A stretch of 55,877 bases of DNA from a virus: IMG/VR virus record IMGVR_UViG_3300031669_000035, positions 1-55,877 of that record; one strand, written 5' to 3'. Both the position numbers and the translations under genes were made by a program. Of this stretch, positions 1-44,612 are shown in pieces (within the stretch, counting starts at the first letter, position 1; each line of letters starts with the position of its first letter). The notes under the pieces were generated by a model. The model was not told where the DNA came from and searched no databases. It saw only the letters and a list, made by a program, of their open reading frames with translations.

Positions 1-3000
1 TTCTCTTCTGGCCCTTTTTTAGCTTTCTCTTTTTTTGGTTCAGCCTTTGGTTTTGCTTCACCCTCCGTCTTAACCTCTTTTACCGCACCTTTATCTTCTG
101 TCTTTTTAAAAGACTTTGCATGATCAGTTATTTCTCCTGCTATTTCATCAATATCTTCCTCCTGGAATTTATCTCCAAGAGAAGCTTTAAGCCTCTTTTT
201 AACCTCAGCAATAAGCTTCTGCCCCTGAAGACCTGTTTCTTCTACAATTCCTTCTGTAATCTTTTTTAAAGCATTGAAAGCTGATGGTTGGTTAAACATG
301 TTTGGAGCAATATTAGCTTTACCTCCAATAGCCTGTAGTAGTTCTTCAAATCCTTCAGCTATCTTTGCTTTGCCGATTATTGGTTTTGGTTCGGTTAATG
401 TTTTATCCTTTATAACATACTGTTCCTGCTTATTGCTTTTACCTTTCAACGGACCGTCAATGGTTATAAGTTTTACAACTTGAGCATCAGATTCGTTTAT
501 AGCTTTAATTTCAGCTTCACGATACTGTTTAGGAGTTAATCCTTTAGGGTTTATCTCTACAGTTTCTACTGTAGTTCCTTTAGGAATATTAAACTCTGCA
601 ACCCCATCTCCTTTATCAAACTTATCTGCAATAGTTTTATCTGTAGACCCGAATATACCTTCGGCTCCCTTATGAACATTTATCTCTTCACCAGATGGGC
701 CTTTCTTTCCTCCTTGTCCTTTGAATATTTTTATGTCCTCAGTTGTTGTTTCTGCTTTAGGTTTTTTAGTCTCTTTTGTTTCTAATACGGTTTCTTCACC
801 TTTGGTTTCTTTGGCTTTTGTTTCTTCGACATTTTCTTCAGTTTTTATAGCCTCTATCTCAGGCTTTGTTAATAAACCACTTGTTTCTAACGCTACAGAA
901 ACTTCAGGGGTCGGATTGTTTACATTAAGATTAACCTCGCCATCTTTTACAGATTTTACAAAGGCATCATCATTTAATCTATCGATAATTTCTGTTTCAG
1001 AAAAAAATTGGTCATTAACTTTATATTCAACACTACCTTCTTTTTCCTGTATAGAAACATTGTCAAGTTTAGTATCTAAATTTGTATCTTTCTGCTCTTC
1101 GAATACCATAGATATCTGACCATTAATAGCATCTATTTGAGTTTGTATTTCATCTCCTGCTTTTTGTGTAACAACATCATCAACAATAACATCCTTCTTG
1201 CTATCCATTAATTTCTTCTTATTGTAGACAAGATCAGCAAGTTCAATTCTTTTATCTTCGCTTATGTTTTTAGGTAATCCATCTACAACTTTCTTATATT
1301 CCGCTACCTTTTCAGTTACAGCTTCAAGCTCTCCTGGTTTCATTTTTTCAACAACCTCCGGCTTCGTTATGAATTCCTTGAATTTGTCTACATTGTTAGC
1401 AGCATTATATAAAGATTCAGACTCTAATCTATTTCCGCTTCTTATGCCTTTTGTAGAACCTATTCCAGACACTATAGATGTAAGTAATACCTGCTCTAAT
1501 ATCTCGTCCTGAGTAACCTCTAAATCGAAAGTGTCATCTTGATTCTTTTTATTAAACAAGTATTTCACACCCAAATCACCAGCAGTTTGCATTCCTTCCT
1601 GTATGTTTTCAGCAAGAACCTCTTTTGCCATAAACTTAGTCCCTTCTTTTATAGCTTTCTTCATGCTAACGCCATCTTTAACAGCTTCTACTACAAACTT
1701 AGTAAGTCCTTTTTTAGCTCCCTCACCGAAAATATAAGATTGTGGATTTATTAACTCTAAAGCTGAGGTTACTAATGAAGCTGAATTTGCAAAATTATTT
1801 GCTTCATCGTTAGACAACCCCAAAGATTTTGCTTCTTGATAATAATCATTTTGAGATAACGCAAATGAACTTGCTATCAATCCAGCTCCCTGAGATATTT
1901 TCTGAGATAATCCTGCTGATTCTAAAACAGAGCCTGCCGCACCTCCACCCCCAAGTAATGCATACATTTGAAATAATGTTTCTGATACTTTAGGGACAAG
2001 CTTCTCGGCTTTCAACTCTCCATTCTCTATTAACCCACCTTTTAAGTCTGTAGGAACCTTATATATGCTTCCTGCTTTCTCTGTATCAAAGAATCCTGTG
2101 GCCCAATCGGAAACAATTTCAGCCCCTCTTTCTGTTGCGTCATCATTAGATAACTGTTTAGCTTCGTTTGCTGCGAAATTTATAAGGTTTCCAACCATAT
2201 TAACAGAAGCTTTCCCTATAGGAGATACTACTTGATGGTATAATACATTTGCTCTTGCAGCGTCACCCTCAAATCCAAGAAGTAATGCTTTTGCTTTTGC
2301 TTGTTTATAATCTTCATCAACAGCTTCTTGAGCAAGTTTTTCATCGATAAGTTTTTTTCTGATTTCAGGATAATCATTAATAACATTTTTAAGCCTATTA
2401 TCAAGTCTTGATTTTTGACTCTCTAAAGCTTCTATATTGGATATGTCTTGGTCAGTTATATTATCAACACCTTTCGATATTATAGCATTCATTTTTGTAT
2501 CTATAATCTCACCCTGATGCAATAAAGCATCTTTCATGAAACTCATAGAGTTCTCACCTTTAAATGTAGTTGATTTTACCTGTAATTGTAAGTCTTTAAA
2601 TTTTTCAGGATCATTGTTGTATAAAAATGTAAGATAATCTTTTTTTACCTTGTCTGTATTTATGCCGAGTTCTACTGATTTTTGAAAGTCTTGCTCAGGA
2701 AATAATATTTTAGAATCAACATCAGCCTCCTCTTCGGTTTTACCACCTTGAATTAGCTCGTTTTTATACATATCTGCATTTGCAGTTTGTAAATTTTGAA
2801 GTATTCTTGGCGTATTAAAATCAGGAGTTACATCGAGTGGTTGTTGAGTCTCTGATTGCAATAGTAATTCACCCCTTGTTGGAGGAGGAACGATAGGAAC
2901 TTCGCCACCTGTTTTAACAGCTAAATCTTCTCCTGAAATAGCAAATGGAGTTTCAGTCTTTTGTAGTGCATCCGAAGTAGAACCTGCCAATTCTGATGTA

Positions 3001-13354: not shown

Positions 13355-14632
13355 CTATTGGATGTCCATCCAGAATGATCCAGGAGGATTGTTGAACTCT
13401 AAGCTCAAGTTTCCACTTACCCACCAGTCTGTGTAGTTTTCTCTTGATCCTTTACTGCCTCTGTTTAGAGTAGAACCCATTTCAACTGCAGGTATTCCTT
13501 TCATTTTAACAGGAGAGATAGATTCTTGGTCTAACACCAACACTTTTCTTCTCCATTCGTCAGGAAAACAAGAAGGCTCTCTAAATAATTCACAAGGAAC
13601 CAATACAAAGTTCATTCCTCCAAACTCAATTCTTGATAAATTCAAGTTTGCAACTTCATCAGAAGGACTATATCTTAAGCCTGGTTGCTTGTAAATTTTA
13701 GAAAACTCATTAAGGATCTCTGCTGTTCCGTAAATGAAACGAGTAGCACCCTCAACTTTAAAGTTTGTTTGGAAAGCTAAAGCTTCAAAAGCAGCTTGTA
13801 ATCCAGCTACCGTAGGGTTTGCACTTGCAGAACCTGCAGCAACCATTGTAGGATATATACCACCCATTGCTTTTGCAACTCTATTTCCAGATAACGGGAA
13901 CTCACCTCTTTGACCATTGAAGTATGAGTTAAAGAAATCAACTCTTAATTGATTTAACTTTAACTTTTTATCTTTCGCAAGATAATCAGTAGTTCCAGCA
14001 TTGATGTATTTCTGCATCTCAACTCTATCCCATCTCTGAGCTCTTAAGAAGAACTGGATATAGTTGTATCTTGTGATTGTTTCCATTCTTCCGTAGTTAG
14101 CGAAATAATCCATACCATCAGACTCGATAGTAGATTGGAAAGCAAAAACATCACCAACCGCAACAGCAGGTAAGCCATCACTTGTTTGAGATGTTACAAT
14201 AATTTGATTACCAGCACCAACTTGTGTAATAACACCTTTACTATTATCTGGATAGATAACAATTAAGTCCTCAGTAACGTGAGCCATTGAAGCTGCTGTT
14301 AATGGGATAGTTTGTGTCTGAGAAGCCCCAGCTACAGCAGCTTGAGCTGCAACAATAGCAGTAGCCTCAATAGGGCTTCTACCAAAAGTAGTTTCAAGGT
14401 ATTCAAACTCGTCAAGAGTTTTCTCTAAATAAGGCTTCATGTTAAGAAGCTTTAGAGCATTATATTGAGCAGGAGCCGCATCAAAGATTTCTCTTCGTAC
14501 TGCTTTCTGAATTAAAATTGATTCCGCAGGCGAAAATGCTGATTCAACAGCATACTGCGACCCTTCAGGGTTTGTTTGTAAGTTCCCGAAAGGAGCATTA
14601 CCAACGCCAGGTGTATAAGTAGTTTCACTCAT
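13355..14632 (-). CDS. major capsid protein
   Basis: 425 residues. Identified by position after portal and scaffold-like genes, by size, and by its HK97-fold-like pattern: a helical N-terminal arm and long helix (residues about 30-75), an Ala-rich segment (TAIVAAQAAVAGASQTQTIP, about 92-111), a central helical part and a strand-rich C-terminus ending in NNPPGSFWMDIQ. The leader is A-rich (typical for highly expressed Bacteroidetes genes) and the gene is followed by the strongest terminator of the late region, consistent with a major structural product. No protease gene is seen beside it. Confidence 0.8.
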   Translation of the reverse strand: MSETTYTPGVGNAPFGNLQTNPEGSQYAVESAFSPAESILIQKAVRREIFDAAPAQYNALKLLNMKPYLEKTLDEFEYLETTFGRSPIEATAIVAAQAAVAGASQTQTIPLTAASMAHVTEDLIVIYPDNSKGVITQVGAGNQIIVTSQTSDGLPAVAVGDVFAFQSTIESDGMDYFANYGRMETITRYNYIQFFLRAQRWDRVEMQKYINAGTTDYLAKDKKLKLNQLRVDFFNSYFNGQRGEFPLSGNRVAKAMGGIYPTMVAAGSASANPTVAGLQAAFEALAFQTNFKVEGATRFIYGTAEILNEFSKIYKQPGLRYSPSDEVANLNLSRIEFGGMNFVLVPCELFREPSCFPDEWRRKVLVLDQESISPVKMKGIPAVEMGSTLNRGSKGSRENYTDWWVSGNLSLEFNNPPGSFWMDIQ

Positions 14633-15971: not shown

Positions 15972-18218
15972 TTAATTAAAATTCTTATTTGCAGTGGATA
16001 ATGATTCTTTTAATGCTATTTGTTCCATCTTGTTTGAGTGGTCCTCCATTTTATCTATGGTTCTCTCATTTTTTTGATCCTGTAATATTTTCTCGTTCTT
16101 TGCCTCTTGCTGAGCTAAAAGTTGTTGTTCCTGTTCAGCTCTTACTTTATTTTCTTTAGCCTCCTGTCTTTTTAGCTCAAGTTTCTTGCCTGCGTACTCT
16201 CTTAATGCCATAGCTACATCAGAAGGAGTTGACCTTGTATATAGGTCTGAATAAATTGTATCATCTATCATTCCTGTCTGAAGGAACACGTTAAGCATTT
16301 GATCTCCTTGTGCAAATAACATGTCTTGAGCATTCTCTCTTGTAACGAAAACTCTAAAGTCTTCACCTTTCATATCTTTTGATAGCTCAAGAACTTCAAC
16401 ACCGTCATCACCCACAGCTATAGCTAACTCTCTCTCATTATCTATATACATTCTTTTTCCTACGGTAGCTGTATGCTGGTGTACTTGCAAGAAAGTTTGA
16501 GATAATGCGTTATAGAATGGCTCTTGCATTAAAGAACCTCTTTGTATAAGCATTTGCGTAACACCTACAAGTTGGTCTGAACCTGTACTCTCACCTTTTA
16601 ACCCTTCATTTACTCCAGTATCTTTTTGGATGATACCTTCCATAATTGGGATGATATTGAACAAAGCGTAAGTGCCTTGTTTAGGTGTGGCATCATATAC
16701 TCCAAGTGAGTTAGGCACACCCCTACCTTTTGTTCTTATTGTTATAGGTTTTCCTTGGTCAACATCTCTATACAGAGCATCTTCCCCTCCTTGTGCATCG
16801 ATAGAGTCTTTATCTACAACAACATTTGTCCCTCCTGAATTGTTTATTTGTGATTCCGCAACAGATAGTATTCTGTTTATAAATCTCTGAGGATTTATAG
16901 CGTCATCTACAGGGCTCATTATTTCTCCATCAACATAACCCCAAGTATAACACTTGAAAGGATATTTTACATTTGACAAGTCATCCCAATCTGTTTCCTG
17001 GTAAGGATGTAATCCAAAATCAAGAACAATATCAGATACAACTTCTCCTGATTTAGCTTTTTCTTTTGATACTCCTATAGCTTCATAGGGTATGAATTTA
17101 CAAAATCTAAGAACATCGATATACATTGATCTTTTCTTTGAACCATTAAACAACTTATCATTTTTAGGTGTTTTAGGTGGTTCGATTAGGTCTTCTTCGG
17201 TATATGGTTCTCCTGTCAATGGGTTTTCTGTTTCGCCTAAATAAATAAGGTATGGATATCCATATTCATCCATAACATATCCTGCTGTTTTTTTCTCTTC
17301 ATCCCTCCAGTAGGCATGACAAACAGGAATTTTAGTAGTTCCAATATTTTGATTAGAATTTTCATCGCTAAAAACTGCATTGTTTTGTGATTGTTGATTA
17401 TCAGAGACATATTTTTCTATTGCTTTTCTTTCTTCATCCTCTATATTTTGATATGTTTCATATATATCTGTAGGAAGCATTCCTACGAATTTACCCATAT
17501 AGTCAGCATCTGTAAGATCATATCTTTTTGCAGATCTGTCAAAAAAGAAGTCCTCAGATTGAAGAACCTCATATCTTTGATGTCCAGAATGTTCAAATGC
17601 CTCTACCACACAAAGACCAGAAAGACCTAAATTCTGAGATGCCATCACTTGCATTTCCTCAAGATTATTTAGGTTCTTTACATACTGTATAAGTCTATTT
17701 ATAGTCTTTACGTATGAATCTACGTATAAGTTTTCATGGATTTGTCTTGTTTCACCTTCTGTTTCACCTATAGATTTGTCAGAATCTCTAAGTATTCTTC
17801 CTAATGCAGGAAATTCATTAGCAATCCTTGTTTTTAGTAATTTCTTACCAAGAGACTCCTCTCTTCTGTTTATGGCTTTCTTAGAAACACTTTTAGCACT
17901 TGCGTTTATAGTCAGCCTTATAGCATTACCTCTGTACTGCTCAATCATTGGGCGTATTAGGTTGTGTACTACTTTAATTCTATTCCTTGCTTGGCTTGTG
18001 CTATCTTTTAAGAACGCTTCTAAATCTTCATCTTTAATCCACTGATTTCCCTTATAGAAATTCTTGTTTATTTTTGTTTTTGCAATGAAATCAGCATGTG
18101 AGGATGTTGATGAGTCTGCAGCTACAAATTTTGCGTATTGAAGGTGGTAAGACTTGTCTTTATCTTTAGTTTCAAGTCTATTTGGTTTTGTTGTCGCTTC
18201 TGTAAGAAAGTAAAACAT
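15972..18218 (-). CDS. portal protein, crAss-like
   Basis: 748 residues. The N-terminal part contains NFYKGNQW (residue about 54) and NRIKVVHNLIRPMIEQYRGN (about 79-98), a strong portal signature in crAss-like and related Bacteroidetes phages. A long helical middle and a Gln/Glu/Lys-rich coiled C-terminus (residues about 680-730) follow. Its position after TerL and before scaffold and capsid fits. The portal forms the dodecameric DNA channel at one capsid vertex and docks TerL and the ring proteins. Confidence 0.85.
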   Translation of the reverse strand: MFYFLTEATTKPNRLETKDKDKSYHLQYAKFVAADSSTSSHADFIAKTKINKNFYKGNQWIKDEDLEAFLKDSTSQARNRIKVVHNLIRPMIEQYRGNAIRLTINASAKSVSKKAINRREESLGKKLLKTRIANEFPALGRILRDSDKSIGETEGETRQIHENLYVDSYVKTINRLIQYVKNLNNLEEMQVMASQNLGLSGLCVVEAFEHSGHQRYEVLQSEDFFFDRSAKRYDLTDADYMGKFVGMLPTDIYETYQNIEDEERKAIEKYVSDNQQSQNNAVFSDENSNQNIGTTKIPVCHAYWRDEEKKTAGYVMDEYGYPYLIYLGETENPLTGEPYTEEDLIEPPKTPKNDKLFNGSKKRSMYIDVLRFCKFIPYEAIGVSKEKAKSGEVVSDIVLDFGLHPYQETDWDDLSNVKYPFKCYTWGYVDGEIMSPVDDAINPQRFINRILSVAESQINNSGGTNVVVDKDSIDAQGGEDALYRDVDQGKPITIRTKGRGVPNSLGVYDATPKQGTYALFNIIPIMEGIIQKDTGVNEGLKGESTGSDQLVGVTQMLIQRGSLMQEPFYNALSQTFLQVHQHTATVGKRMYIDNERELAIAVGDDGVEVLELSKDMKGEDFRVFVTRENAQDMLFAQGDQMLNVFLQTGMIDDTIYSDLYTRSTPSDVAMALREYAGKKLELKRQEAKENKVRAEQEQQLLAQQEAKNEKILQDQKNERTIDKMEDHSNKMEQIALKESLSTANKNFN

Positions 18219-18223
18219 AATTA

Positions 18224-18820
18224 TTACTGTTGTTTGTGAAATGATTCAATTAACTCTGATGAGCTAATTTCTAATATGTCTGCATCTTCTTTTTCAGATA
18301 TTCCAAATCCTCCTTCAGATTGTGATATTAGAGCTGGTAATGTTTTTGATATTGTTGAACATGAATCTATATATGCTTTCTTCTTTGTCCAGTCTGTTTC
18401 TCCGTCTTTATTCAAAAAATCCATACTTAAATTAACATCTACAAGCTTCTCGTAATTTGACATGATTTTTTCAATCATCATTTTAGATCTTATTCTTGGT
18501 CCAATTTCAAAAGTTCTCATTTCAGCTATAGCTGTTTTTACTTTTTCAGAAAAATTTCCTGCTATGTATGTATTTCTTACAGTGTCAGCTTTTTTTCCGA
18601 AAGATTGCTCAAGAGACAGTTCTATTTTCTGCTTATCATCTTCTTCGTATTTAAACGGACTTGCTTTACAAGCATAATACCATACAAACAAGGCTTCTGA
18701 CCTTGATAGGTTTCTAAAAGCATCTCTCTTTGCCAATTCTGGATAATCTAATAAAATACCTTTCTTTGTTTCCGGATAAAACATTGAAAGTCTTTTTACA
18801 TATTCTACATTATCACTCAT
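18224..18820 (-). CDS. small packaging-region protein (terminase small subunit candidate)
   Basis: 198 residues, helical, charged, no recognised motif. It lies between TerL and portal, and its ATG overlaps the TerL stop (TAATG), so it is translationally coupled to TerL. The position makes a packaging or portal-associated role likely. A small terminase subunit is possible, but that gene usually precedes TerL and no HTH is evident. Confidence 0.5.
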   Translation of the reverse strand: MSDNVEYVKRLSMFYPETKKGILLDYPELAKRDAFRNLSRSEALFVWYYACKASPFKYEEDDKQKIELSLEQSFGKKADTVRNTYIAGNFSEKVKTAIAEMRTFEIGPRIRSKMMIEKIMSNYEKLVDVNLSMDFLNKDGETDWTKKKAYIDSCSTISKTLPALISQSEGGFGISEKEDADILEISSSELIESFHKQQ

Positions 18821-21147
18821 TAATATCTTTTTTGTTTTATTGGTCTTCTGTTAAGATTTCCGCCTGAATCCCTATATAATTCGTACTTTATAACATACTT
18901 ATCATCCTCTGATTTTATCTCATAAGGAGTTAAGTGTTCATAGGATAAGCTACAAATGTAAGAAAAAACAACTGAAAATAAAACGTCATCATGAAATTTC
19001 CTTTTATCTGCTGTCCCCCAAGTTTCGTTACCTTTTTCTGATACTGTACATATAAAAGTTCTAAGCTGAAGAAAGAATGTGTCTATCCATATATTATCTC
19101 CGTATGCTTGGATAAATTCAAACATCTTATTTATTATAAATCTTGTTCTCGCACCTCTATTGTCTATTCCTTCTGTATTAGACCCTCCTTGCATGTATGG
19201 TGGTAATTCAGTTCTATAAACAAGACTGTCGTAAAACCCCTTTGTATCTACATAATCAATATAAGCCATACCTATATTTGATTCTACTAATTCTTTAACT
19301 CTTTCTTTTTTACCTTCTGAAGCTCCATAGTAAAGTCCAAGAAGCATTGTTTGAAGGAATGTGTACTTATGATTACTATCTCTATAATTCACTATTGCAG
19401 ACACTGTTTTAAAGTGTGCGTCAAAAATTGATGCTGACATATTAGAATAACCATTATCTGATGCAATAGGATCGACTCCGCTATAATATCTATTTACCCA
19501 ATTTCTTTTTGGATGCATAAATATAGTACATGAAGCTCTTGGGTCATCATCAGCAGTGGGTACAAATGTAGCTCCAACTATTTTAAATGGTACATCATCA
19601 TTTTCACCTGCCTGAACCGAAGTGTCAAACACTGGTTCAAAATAACCTTTCTGTGGTTTTGTTACAGCAGGTACATCTCTTATTCTTTCGAGAGACCTGT
19701 TTATATAGTCTATAGAAACAAGAGTTTTTGCTGATGTCAAGAACATGTCCTCTATTATTGAAGGGTATGTCTGTCTAAATTGAACCATTTTCTCCTCTCT
19801 GTCTGGGCCTTCAACATTATATACAGCCTTTTCTTTGTCGTAGAACTCTTTAGTTATACCTGGTCTTGTTGTCCAGTCGAAAAATATAGGTATTATTGCA
19901 CTTTCAAATTCTCTATCGGCCCATTTTTTCATGGCAGCCATAAATTCAAGCTCGTAAGCCTTACCTGCCTTATCCATCTCTCCACCTGTTCCCCATGCTA
20001 TAATTTGACGTTTAATTTCTATCTTTTTTGTGTCAGGATTCTGCCAGAACATAGTAGGTCTTGCTTCACGCATCATTTTACCTAATATTCCAATATAACC
20101 AGCCTCATCTATCATTACAAGTTGTGGTGAACCACCATTAATAGCTGACACAGATGGTGCTACTACCTGAAGCTTTGAGTTTAACCCTCTTTTATCACCT
20201 TTTTTACCTTTCTCGCTTAGTCTAAACAGATTATCTCTGTCGTTACTTACTGATGGTTTTAACCATTCCGGAAGCTCACTAAAAGGGTATTTAATTTTAT
20301 CTTCAAAAATCTCTATACCGGTATCTTTATCTTGTGTTATAAATTTCAGGAAGAAATTAGGGTATAATAGAATCTTTTTTAAAGCACATCCACCGAGAGT
20401 AGACGTTGCTGCTATCTGTCTTGGTTTACCAATCATCATTGAGTAACCACAGTCAAAAAGATAACATATAACTTCATGTACAGGTTTTGCATCATAAGTT
20501 CTTGCTCCTGATGACATATCACCCTCTTTAAGTACGAGGTATTTATTTAAGAAATACAATGTATTTTCTTTACTCCTCTTCATTTCTCTCAAGCAGAAAG
20601 TCTTTTTTTCGTCTATTGTTGCAAAATCATTTACAGATTTGTTTTCAGAATACCACTGTTCAGCTTGCTGAACGTAAAGCATAAACTTTTTATAGTTTGT
20701 TTTTTTCTGGAACCCAGTATTTATACTGTCAATCCAATCAATAAAATCTCTTTCGTGGTAAACTGTAGATGTTGGCATCCAGTCTTCTTTCTCGATATCT
20801 ATACTTCCGTCAAACCTATAAGATGTTCCTTCTGTTATCTTTTTAAAACCTTCTGCAGATTTTATTACTACATGCTTATCTTTATCTGATTTTAATTCTG
20901 ATTCATCGACAATTTTTATATGCTTGTCTGCATTTATAGCGTTGTCACTCTTTATTCTTGGGTCAGATATGATAGATACCTTTTCTTTTTGTATCTGTTT
21001 TATTTTTGGCTGACTTATGTAGCCATTTTTTTTCAGTAAGTCAATATCTTCTTTAGATATTTCGACTCCTGTTTGATATAGTTCGAATAAAAATTCTAAT
21101 CTATTCTCTCTTACTATTTCATTTTTTATCTTCTGATTATTACTCAT
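18820..21147 (-). CDS. terL: terminase large subunit
   Basis: 775 residues. The N-terminal ATPase has a deviant Walker A, GKPRQIAATST (residues about 236-246), with the Lys at the motif start as in several phage terminases, and a Walker B, LVMIDEAG (about 341-348). The C-terminal RNase H-fold nuclease shows YYSGVDPIASDNGYS (about 552) and a late HDDVLFSVVFSYI (about 717) supplying acidic metal ligands. It cuts and pumps the genome into the prohead through the portal. A terminator lies immediately upstream, so TerL begins a new stretch of the late operon. Confidence 0.93.
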   Translation of the reverse strand: MSNNQKIKNEIVRENRLEFLFELYQTGVEISKEDIDLLKKNGYISQPKIKQIQKEKVSIISDPRIKSDNAINADKHIKIVDESELKSDKDKHVVIKSAEGFKKITEGTSYRFDGSIDIEKEDWMPTSTVYHERDFIDWIDSINTGFQKKTNYKKFMLYVQQAEQWYSENKSVNDFATIDEKKTFCLREMKRSKENTLYFLNKYLVLKEGDMSSGARTYDAKPVHEVICYLFDCGYSMMIGKPRQIAATSTLGGCALKKILLYPNFFLKFITQDKDTGIEIFEDKIKYPFSELPEWLKPSVSNDRDNLFRLSEKGKKGDKRGLNSKLQVVAPSVSAINGGSPQLVMIDEAGYIGILGKMMREARPTMFWQNPDTKKIEIKRQIIAWGTGGEMDKAGKAYELEFMAAMKKWADREFESAIIPIFFDWTTRPGITKEFYDKEKAVYNVEGPDREEKMVQFRQTYPSIIEDMFLTSAKTLVSIDYINRSLERIRDVPAVTKPQKGYFEPVFDTSVQAGENDDVPFKIVGATFVPTADDDPRASCTIFMHPKRNWVNRYYSGVDPIASDNGYSNMSASIFDAHFKTVSAIVNYRDSNHKYTFLQTMLLGLYYGASEGKKERVKELVESNIGMAYIDYVDTKGFYDSLVYRTELPPYMQGGSNTEGIDNRGARTRFIINKMFEFIQAYGDNIWIDTFFLQLRTFICTVSEKGNETWGTADKRKFHDDVLFSVVFSYICSLSYEHLTPYEIKSEDDKYVIKYELYRDSGGNLNRRPIKQKRY

Positions 21148-21216: not shown

Positions 21217-21798
21217 CTATTTTTCTTCTTCTTTAGTAGCTTCTACTTTAGCTTCTACTTCAGCTTCTACTTTAGCAGCTTCTTCTACTTCAGCTTCTGC
21301 TTTAGTTTCTACTTTAGTAGTCGTTTCAGTAAGCATGCTTATAGCTTTGTTTAAAGATTCTATAGCTACTGTGTGAGCTGTAAAGTAAGATTTTTTAAGC
21401 TCTATAAAAGATAATGATTTTGTAACTATTCTTTGGTACTCACGTTTATTTTCTTCATTATTGAATTTAGACAATAATGCATAGACGCTATTTAATGAGC
21501 CAACCATTCTTGATATTGATGTATCATAGTTTTCGTTTTCTTTTATAGAAAGATCTCCTCTATAGAATGTGTTTCCGTCCTTTTCGTTATATTTAACATA
21601 CTGAACCTTGTATTCTATCTCTTTATAAAGAGAGATAAGCATTTTAGACAGTCCATTAATAGATTTTTCTAATTCATCATTAAATCCTTCTGGTAAATCT
21701 TCTTTATTTAATGTTGAGGCTTTTTTTGAAAGCAAGTTTACTCTTGCAACTTCTTTTCTTGCATCTTCTATAGATGCTGCTAACTGTTCTAATTTCAT
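21217..21798 (-). CDS. helical protein with repetitive Glu/Ala/Lys/Val tail
   Basis: 193 residues, mostly helical. The last 35 residues are low complexity (repeats of VEAEVEAK-type units) built from an imperfect 18-base DNA repeat of TTCTACTTTAGC-like units (about 21236-21320). No recognised domain. It lies between the tmRNA gene and terL and ends at a strong terminator. It begins with a poly-A leader ending AAAAAAAAATG, like other genes of the block. Possibly a virion decoration or packaging accessory protein. Confidence 0.6.
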   Translation of the reverse strand: MKLEQLAASIEDARKEVARVNLLSKKASTLNKEDLPEGFNDELEKSINGLSKMLISLYKEIEYKVQYVKYNEKDGNTFYRGDLSIKENENYDTSISRMVGSLNSVYALLSKFNNEENKREYQRIVTKSLSFIELKKSYFTAHTVAIESLNKAISMLTETTTKVETKAEAEVEEAAKVEAEVEAKVEATKEEEK

Positions 21799-21833: not shown

Positions 21834-22127
21834 ATAAGGAGAATGTTACTATACTTCGCATTCTCCTTATCGAGACTAAGCTGCTAAACCAACCGGAGCT
21901 GGAGCAAGAATTTCTCTGAATAAATTAATTACTTTTCCTTTTACGGAACATAAGTCACTTTCATGCTTTCGCTTTGTTTACCGTCATCCTGCTATCAAAT
22001 CCAAGTCATCCCCGTTTGTTTAAAAAATGCAAAAGAAGTGTGCTTCATTGAGAGGCATCCTTTGCTGGCGTGGAGATGGAGGGGTTCGAACCCTCGTGTA
22101 TACATTCTGCCAATAAACAGACTTACT
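21834..22127 (-). ncRNA. ssrA: circularly permuted (two-piece) tmRNA
   Basis: On the minus strand the acceptor piece comes first. T-stem GAGGG, loop TTCGAAC, stem CCCTC, acceptor strand CATCTCC and A73 occupy 22095-22071. After a 57-base spacer the coding piece begins at 22013 with GGGGATG, which pairs with CATCTCC over 7 bp, including G3-U70, the AlaRS identity element. GGGGATGACTTGGATTTGAT matches tmRNA 5' ends. Helix P2 forms across the pieces: GACGGTAAAC (21985-21976) with GTTTATTGGC (22118-22109), and GACTTAT (21956-21950) with GTAAGTC (22126-22120). An open tag frame from GGA (21938) encodes GKVINLFREILAPAPVGLAA before TAG (21876). A 12-bp hairpin (21834-21870) closes the coding piece. 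CCA is not encoded. No T-arm lies downstream, so a one-piece reading is excluded. Confidence 0.9.
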
Positions 22128-22130
22128 CAG

Positions 22131-22138
22131 CAAATCTA
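22131..22138 (-). promoter_or_regulatory. -7 box of the tmRNA promoter (TAGATTTG)
   Basis: Minus-strand TAGATTTG matches TAnnTTTG. Its end is 4 bases before the first P2 strand of the acceptor piece, so transcription would start almost exactly at the RNA's 5' boundary. The gene would have its own promoter just after the upstream terminator. No TTG at ideal distance. Confidence 0.5.
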
Positions 22139-22154: not shown

Positions 22155-22185
22155 AAAAAAAGCCTTGATAAATTCAAGGCTTTTA
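22155..22185 (-). terminator. intrinsic terminator after the 86-aa gene
   Basis: Stem AGCCTTGA/TCAAGGCT with a 5-base loop, extended by flanking A and T runs. On the minus strand it is followed by seven T residues. It lies between the 86-residue gene and the tmRNA gene and is nearly symmetric. Confidence 0.85.
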
Positions 22186-22209: not shown

Positions 22210-22470
22210 CTAAGGGATAACAGTAGAAATCAATGCAACTAAAGCATCAAAATCAGTGTTTCTATCTGATTCATTAGCGTATACCCACTTTAAATCTTTA
22301 GGAGCAGTTCCTGCGGCGTATGTGATAGTTATTTCATATCTCGTAGCTGTAGCGTTAGCTCTTGGTGGAATATCAAGCTTGTTGAAGTTAATAATAGATT
22401 CAGCATTAATTGGCTGTACAGTACCTATAGCTCTTGTGCTATGTACCATTGGTTTTGCAAGTGCACTCAT
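22210..22470 (-). CDS. small conserved-looking late protein, 86 aa
   Basis: First gene of the late minus block. 86 residues with a beta-rich middle (ATRYEITITYAAG, residues about 42-54), followed by KDLKWVYANESDRNTDFDALV. Small proteins of this shape are frequent beside Bacteroidetes phage packaging genes, but I know no function. The A-rich leader ends AAAAAAATG, a TATATTTG box lies 38 bases upstream, and a terminator follows. Confidence 0.6.
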   Translation of the reverse strand: MSALAKPMVHSTRAIGTVQPINAESIINFNKLDIPPRANATATRYEITITYAAGTAPKDLKWVYANESDRNTDFDALVALISTVIP

Positions 22471-44505: not shown

Positions 44506-44612
44506 GACTACAGTAGTTCAGTTGGTTAGAACAGTGTGCCCTCTAATGGTAAAAGATGCCTAAAAAATAGGGATAAACACACAAGCCGTAGGTTCGAGTC
44601 CTACCTGTAGTC
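44506..44612 (+). tRNA. tRNA-like gene with amber-type anticodon loop and about 30 extra bases
   Basis: Acceptor ACTACAG/CTGTAGT, with G506 also able to pair with C612. D-arm GTTC/GAAC with AGTTGGTTA loop. T-arm GTAGG-TTCGAGT-CCTAC. All are canonical. Between D-arm and T-arm lie about 55 bases instead of about 23. One fold gives an anticodon loop CTCTAAT (anticodon CUA, reads UAG) closed by TGCC/GGTA, plus a variable-arm hairpin (44556-44574). Another gives a perfect GTGTG/CACAC stem with a 39-base loop and normal AAGCC variable loop, but then position 33 is C. CCA is not encoded. Confidence 0.7.

Follow-up and report, generated by a model that had tools for sequence, protein, structure and literature searches.

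Results

A permuted tmRNA gene in a phage structural region

The window (the whole stretch of DNA analyzed here, an IMG/VR virus record of 55,877 bases) carries a complete permuted tmRNA gene on its minus strand (22119–21835), in which an acceptor piece is followed by a 57-nt intervening sequence and then by the coding piece. No convincing competing ORF was found over the tmRNA sequence. On the same strand, the gene is flanked upstream by an 86-aa ORF (22210–22470) and downstream by a 193-aa ORF (21217–21798), followed by genes for a probable terminase large subunit (18820–21147, weakly similar to annotated terminases), a portal protein (15972–18218; phrog_6547, E 3e-30), and an SU10-like major capsid protein (13355–14632; PF17236). 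The original prediction placed the tmRNA inside the structural operon. It does head the terminase-portal-capsid operon, yet it carries its own −7 element just upstream and is bordered by terminator-like hairpins on both sides. The element is of the Bacteroidota type (TAnnTTTG; TAGATTTG, 22131–22138), and the transcript would start near 22127–22121. The upstream hairpin (22158–22184; an 11-bp stem, then a T run) separates the 86-aa ORF from the tmRNA.

The acceptor piece comprises the 3′ strands of P2b (TGTTTATTGGCA, 22108–22119) and P2a (TGT, 22102–22104), a T-arm recognized both by sequence and by covariance models (GAGGG-TTCGAAC-CCCTC, 22079–22095), and the acceptor 3′ strand CATCTCC with discriminator A73 (22071–22078). 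A73 (22071) forms the 3′ end of this piece, and CCA is incompletely encoded. The intervening sequence (22014–22070) lies between the two acceptor strands and would be absent from the mature two-piece RNA. The coding piece opens with the tRNA-like 5′ half (GGGGATGACTTGGATTTGA, starting at 22013), made up of the acceptor 5′ strand GGGGATG (22007–22013) and a D-loop-like segment (ACTTGGATTTGA, 21995–22006) that contains the Bacteroidota-type TTTGA, not TTCGA. The 5′ strands of P2a (GCA, 21992–21990) and P2b (TGACGGTAAACA, 21986–21975) follow. The pieces are therefore paired through a 7-bp acceptor helix, in which G3-U70 and A73 constitute alanine identity, and through a P2 in two parts, GCA/TGT and then TGACGGTAAACA/TGTTTATTGGCA (11/12 paired). 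The T-arm, CATCTCC-A, the helix with its identity elements, the two-part P2, and the tmRNA-like 5′ end had all been predicted, and all are present.

A tag frame running from GGA to TAG (21938–21876) encodes 20 amino acids, GKVINLFREILAPAPVGLAA, with the resume context UA-AAA-GGA, an in-frame UAG, and the end Leu-Ala-Ala. This agrees with the predicted frame ending in Ala-Ala-stop; the resume codon itself, GGA at 21938, was assigned by homology with two orthologs (described below). The gene closes with an 11-bp hairpin (TAAGGAGAATG/CATTCTCCTTA, 21869–21835), which is probably the terminator and the 3′ end of the coding piece. Its loop (21859–21845) is conserved in contigs L003, L004, L019, and L113 as GAAG..AGTA, which resembles a loop-E type motif.

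Elsewhere in the window, a tRNA on the plus strand (44507–44612, 50.5 bits) contains an insert of 32 nt within its anticodon loop, called an intron by ARAGORN, and its anticodon is uncertain. The insert is too short for a self-splicing intron, and the tRNA has no exact copy in IMG/VR.

Detection by covariance models

The Rfam model RF04321 (tmRNA_permuted) matched the window end to end with 43.9 bits (E 1.8e-7, 601 b searched), about 3 bits short of its gathering score of 47 bits, a value that is a score cut-off and no biological feature. The best of the older Rfam models was beta_tmRNA (betaproteobacterial, 31 bits). ARAGORN, whose permuted mode had been proposed as a check, missed the gene and made no correct call by default, in permuted mode, or at lowered thresholds. 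Because RF04321 remained below gathering and ARAGORN was negative, we built a covariance model, R1, from 34 related sequences that did not include the window or the closely related contigs L003, L004, and L019. R1 scored 66.5 bits on the window (E 5.2e-12) and 86 bits on L003 and L004, as compared with 38 (Cellulophaga phage), 29 (Bacteroidota hosts), and 23 bits (E. coli, cut off) on one-piece tmRNA controls. The covariance search that had also been suggested as a check was sub-gathering with Rfam and positive with R1. The unprocessed window strand folds weakly better than shuffled sequences (z −1.3), and its minimum-energy fold was dropped as uninformative.

Orthologs at the same locus

Contigs L003 and L004 encode portals 70–75% identical to that of the window and carry a tmRNA at the equivalent locus, flanked by homologs of the same two ORFs. 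(A tblastn search of the phage collection with the window portal gave no match.) Just upstream of the tmRNA, the TAnnTTTG element is invariant (L003, TAAGTTTG; L004, TATATTTG). The acceptor strands read CATCTCC/GGGGATG in the window, TATCTCC/GGGGATA in L003, and CGACTCC/GGGGTCG in L004, so that the differences are compensatory and G3-U70 is retained; the helix was read by hand, since MAFFT, when aligning the three orthologs, placed the 5′ acceptor strand out of register by one. Nine pairs of P2b are retained in both contigs, and the terminal stem is compensated across them while its loop is conserved. The tags are GKVINLHKEIPQLQAAA in L003 and GKLVNLFGNYSPLKAVA in L004 (the latter read by eye). 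These compensated orthologs, together with the R1 score, strongly support the original identification of a phage-encoded permuted tmRNA.

The intervening sequence measures 57 nt in the window, 53 nt in L003, and 18 nt in L004 (3881–3898), the last far below the other members seen (about 46–214 nt). A further contig, L020, has a T-arm and acceptor 3′ strand identical to those of the window (428–455), and the scan found no permuted 5′ half there.

A class of permuted tmRNAs in Bacteroidota phages

Pattern scans with TTTGA defined a class of about 96 distinct sequences from IMG/VR contigs, human-gut crAss-like phages, Chryseobacterium phage MA9V-3 (which has TTCGA and was included by hand), and Bacteroidota prophages. 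The same IMG/VR scans yielded 80 sequences of another, proteobacterial-looking permuted kind. The patterns fixed acceptor pairs 1–3 only, yet 93 of 104 pattern matches had standard pairing throughout pairs 4–7, against 26 expected by chance. When 34 class sequences were aligned, 89.6% of positions at 19 pairs were paired, compared with 74.2% after shuffling and 47–58% after sliding, and each of the 7 P2 pairs varied on both sides in some sequence. The distance from G1 to the resume codon is shorter in the class (median 61 nt) than in the other permuted phage set (86 nt), and there is less space for PK1. A hairpin that would close off the resume codon (GCC-AUAACN-GGC) scored only slightly better than shuffles and was dropped.

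ARAGORN recovers 74 of 100 class members, and part of the lineage is missed by this program and by Rfam cut-offs. The tmRNAs of MA9V-3 (PV245944) and of crAss-like phages cr114_1, cr125_1, cr10_1, and cr50_1 are annotated merely as tmRNA/SsrA in GenBank; on inspection, all proved to be permuted. The crAss-like phage cr53_1 also has a permuted tmRNA (L143, 1513–1710), for which its GenBank record holds no annotation. In the MA9V-3 contig (1283–2122 and 5936–6294), an annotated ClpX gene lies ~4 kb upstream of the permuted tmRNA; this ClpX is a possible partner for tagged proteins.

Hosts and prophages

A pattern scan of 84,980 species genomes gave 13 matches, of which two were true genes. They belong to the Bacteroidota Sunxiuqinia indica and Carboxylicivirga sediminis, each of which also carries a one-piece tmRNA. 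The other 11 matches were tRNAs or one-piece genes with chance sequence next to them. The Sunxiuqinia copy adjoins genes for RecT, SbcC, and an integrase; in genome G236, a third permuted copy adjoins phage replication genes. RF04321 exceeded its cut-off in 2/395 Bacteroidota genomes, and R1 exceeded 66 bits in the same two out of 296; because few candidates are scored per genome, both counts are lower bounds. They leave out weak RF04321 matches. The weak R1 matches that we inspected (42–50 bits) were the hosts' one-piece tmRNAs. As originally stated, Bacteroidota normally have a one-piece tmRNA, which was above cut-off in 60 of 61 genomes. Many Bacteroidota phages, gut crAss-like phages included, appear to carry their own ribosome-rescue RNA despite the host copy.

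That the window itself comes from a phage of Bacteroidota, as had been proposed, is well supported, if indirectly: we infer it from its membership in a class found in MA9V-3, crAss-like phages, and prophages, from its promoter element and resume codon, from a BT4734-like primase domain, and from the scarcity of Shine-Dalgarno sites (3 of 64 starts). The promoter element occurs upstream of 8 of the 64 window ORFs, a modest excess over the 4.5 expected.

Origin of the permutation

The window probably holds a functional permuted phage ssrA, belonging to a class widespread in Bacteroidota phages that most likely derives from one-piece tmRNA by independent permutation. Permuted tmRNA has been described as the outcome of three events in bacterial lineages, whose signatures (an Ala resume codon, TTCGA, and UCUGGAC) were not found in the window gene. 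Gly is the resume codon of 65 of 96 class members (Asp in 12), and among Bacteroidia one-piece genes it is used by 10 of 11 (the eleventh has Asp), whereas the other permuted phage genes have Ala in 73 of 80 cases. Likewise, TTTGGAC precedes the T-stem in 39/96 class members, 8/11 Bacteroidia one-piece genes, and 1/80 of the other permuted phage genes; the window departs from its class here, with TATACAC. We did not count TTTGA as evidence of origin because it had been used to select both the class and the Bacteroidia one-piece subset.

In a tree of 92 columns, for which the permuted genes compared came from viral contigs and Rfam consensus sequences and not from bacteria, the one-piece genes of Bacteroidia are placed among members of the class, although the two are not united as a single clade. 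Placing all permuted genes in one clade makes the tree 31.8 log units worse, and this arrangement is not rejected (AU test, p 0.19). The cyanobacterial genomes gave no usable comparison. The class could instead descend from a permuted tmRNA taken over from proteobacteria, cyanobacteria, or their phages and later fitted to the ribosomes and SmpB of Bacteroidota, with the Gly codon and TTTGA being convergent. The other permuted class does have the same permutation point and P2 geometry (offset 0,3 in 74/83 of its sequences and 36/100 here), beta_tmRNA is the best older Rfam model for the window, and the one-clade tree survives the test. We nevertheless consider such a transfer unlikely, as it needs a shift of three separate segments to the Bacteroidia state and has the worse tree, albeit not significantly so.

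The original prediction had allowed for transfer or independent permutation. Of these, we favor, without regarding it as proven, a permutation independent of the known bacterial ones and starting from a Bacteroidota one-piece tmRNA, because the Gly resume codon and the tRNA-like ends match the Bacteroidia one-piece genes and not the other permuted phages. The existence of a phage lineage bearing Bacteroidota signatures suggests that tmRNA genes can become permuted in viruses. A fuller scenario, which we stress is tentative if quite conceivable, would be a fourth permutation in Bacteroidota phages from a host one-piece gene, spread via crAss-like and other phages and re-tagged (GK(V/T)I... with AVA/MAV/MAA ends), giving rescued proteins a treatment unlike that of host-tagged ones. 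A one-piece tmRNA in a Bacteroidota-type context (TAAACGGAAAC) is present in Cellulophaga phages phi38:1, where it is unannotated, and Calle_1 (L146 and L147); it is possibly an intermediate or a sister of the permuted class.

Tags and proposed function

Tags ending in LAA, as that of the window does, are found in 14 of 96 class members, as against 60 of 80 other permuted phage genes. Most of the class differs from the window in this respect, and common ends are AVA (19), MAA (15), AAA, VAA, IAA, and MAV; one-piece genes end in LAA or MAA in 50 of 51 cases. Altered last residues of ssrA tags weaken recognition by ClpXP. An altered fate for class-tagged proteins is therefore a fair hypothesis, and the atypical ends raise the question of whether ribosomes are rescued without routing the products to the host protease.

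By analogy with known two-piece tmRNAs, a precursor transcribed from the gene's own Bacteroidota-type promoter would be processed by RNase P and 3′-end nucleases, which would excise the 57-nt intervening sequence and leave two RNAs, an acceptor one (about 22125–22071) and a coding one (from 22013 to about 21835), joined through the acceptor helix and both parts of P2. After addition of CCA, host AlaRS could charge the molecule through G3-U70 and A73. No SmpB was found in the window record, so host SmpB would be used and, with host EF-Tu, may deliver the charged RNA to stalled ribosomes. Translation would resume at GGA 21938, append Ala-GKVINLFREILAPAPVGLAA, and stop at UAG, which would release the ribosome in the infected cell.

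The RNA could alternatively be a decoy that does not tag and inhibits host tmRNA as a tRNA-like molecule, or a decaying relic. A precedent exists in the tag-less tmRNA of phage DS6A, which inhibits host tmRNA (PMC11915505), and the unusual C-termini of the class tags would suit this reading. It is improbable, since the orthologs and the class keep an open tag frame with a conserved GKVI-type start and an in-frame stop, and the helices are under compensatory selection. Chance resemblance of a tRNA-like T-arm beside unrelated sequence, which the ARAGORN result and an Rfam score just below gathering might have suggested, is refuted for practical purposes by R1 (E 5e-12) and by the same-locus orthologs with their compensatory changes.

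Comparison with known systems

A phage-encoded permuted tmRNA is not new by itself. Among 402 phages with tmRNA, 133 distinct structures have been reported, 53 of them two-piece by ARAGORN and 50 of those marine or aquatic (PMC9004378), and the tmRNA of MA9V-3 has been annotated as tmRNA/SsrA (PMC13120357). The original suggestion of an undescribed element thus holds only in part, although no text recognizing the class as such, or its permuted form, was found in a literature search confined to the main text of papers open without subscription. As far as searched, what is new is a Bacteroidota-phage lineage with a Gly resume codon and tRNA-like ends as in Bacteroidia one-piece tmRNA.

The class shares its gene order with the permuted tmRNAs of Alphaproteobacteria, Betaproteobacteria, and Cyanobacteria (RF01849–RF01851), three bacterial groups merged in RF04321 (PMC11915505), as well as the G3-U70 acceptor helix, the T-arm, a P2 across the pieces, and a tag ending in small residues. 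It differs from them in having a Gly rather than an Ala resume codon, TTTGA rather than TTCGA, UUUGGAC before the T-stem, and varied tag ends (AVA, MAA, MAV), and in the Bacteroidota genomes searched it occurs in prophages only. The two-piece tmRNAs of marine phages (Methylophilales phage Melnitz, pelagiphages, and cyanophages) are likewise phage-encoded and permuted but belong to the type seen in proteobacteria or cyanobacteria (PMC9004378). Our own comparison sequences, from IMG/VR contigs and with tags that mostly read ANDE...LAA, differ from the class in their Ala resume codons. The Bacteroidia one-piece tmRNA (RF00023) resembles the class in its GGTTTTGACAGC 5′ domain, UUUGGAC, and Gly resume codon; unlike the class, it is a single piece of about 400 nt with a GENNYALAA-like tag.
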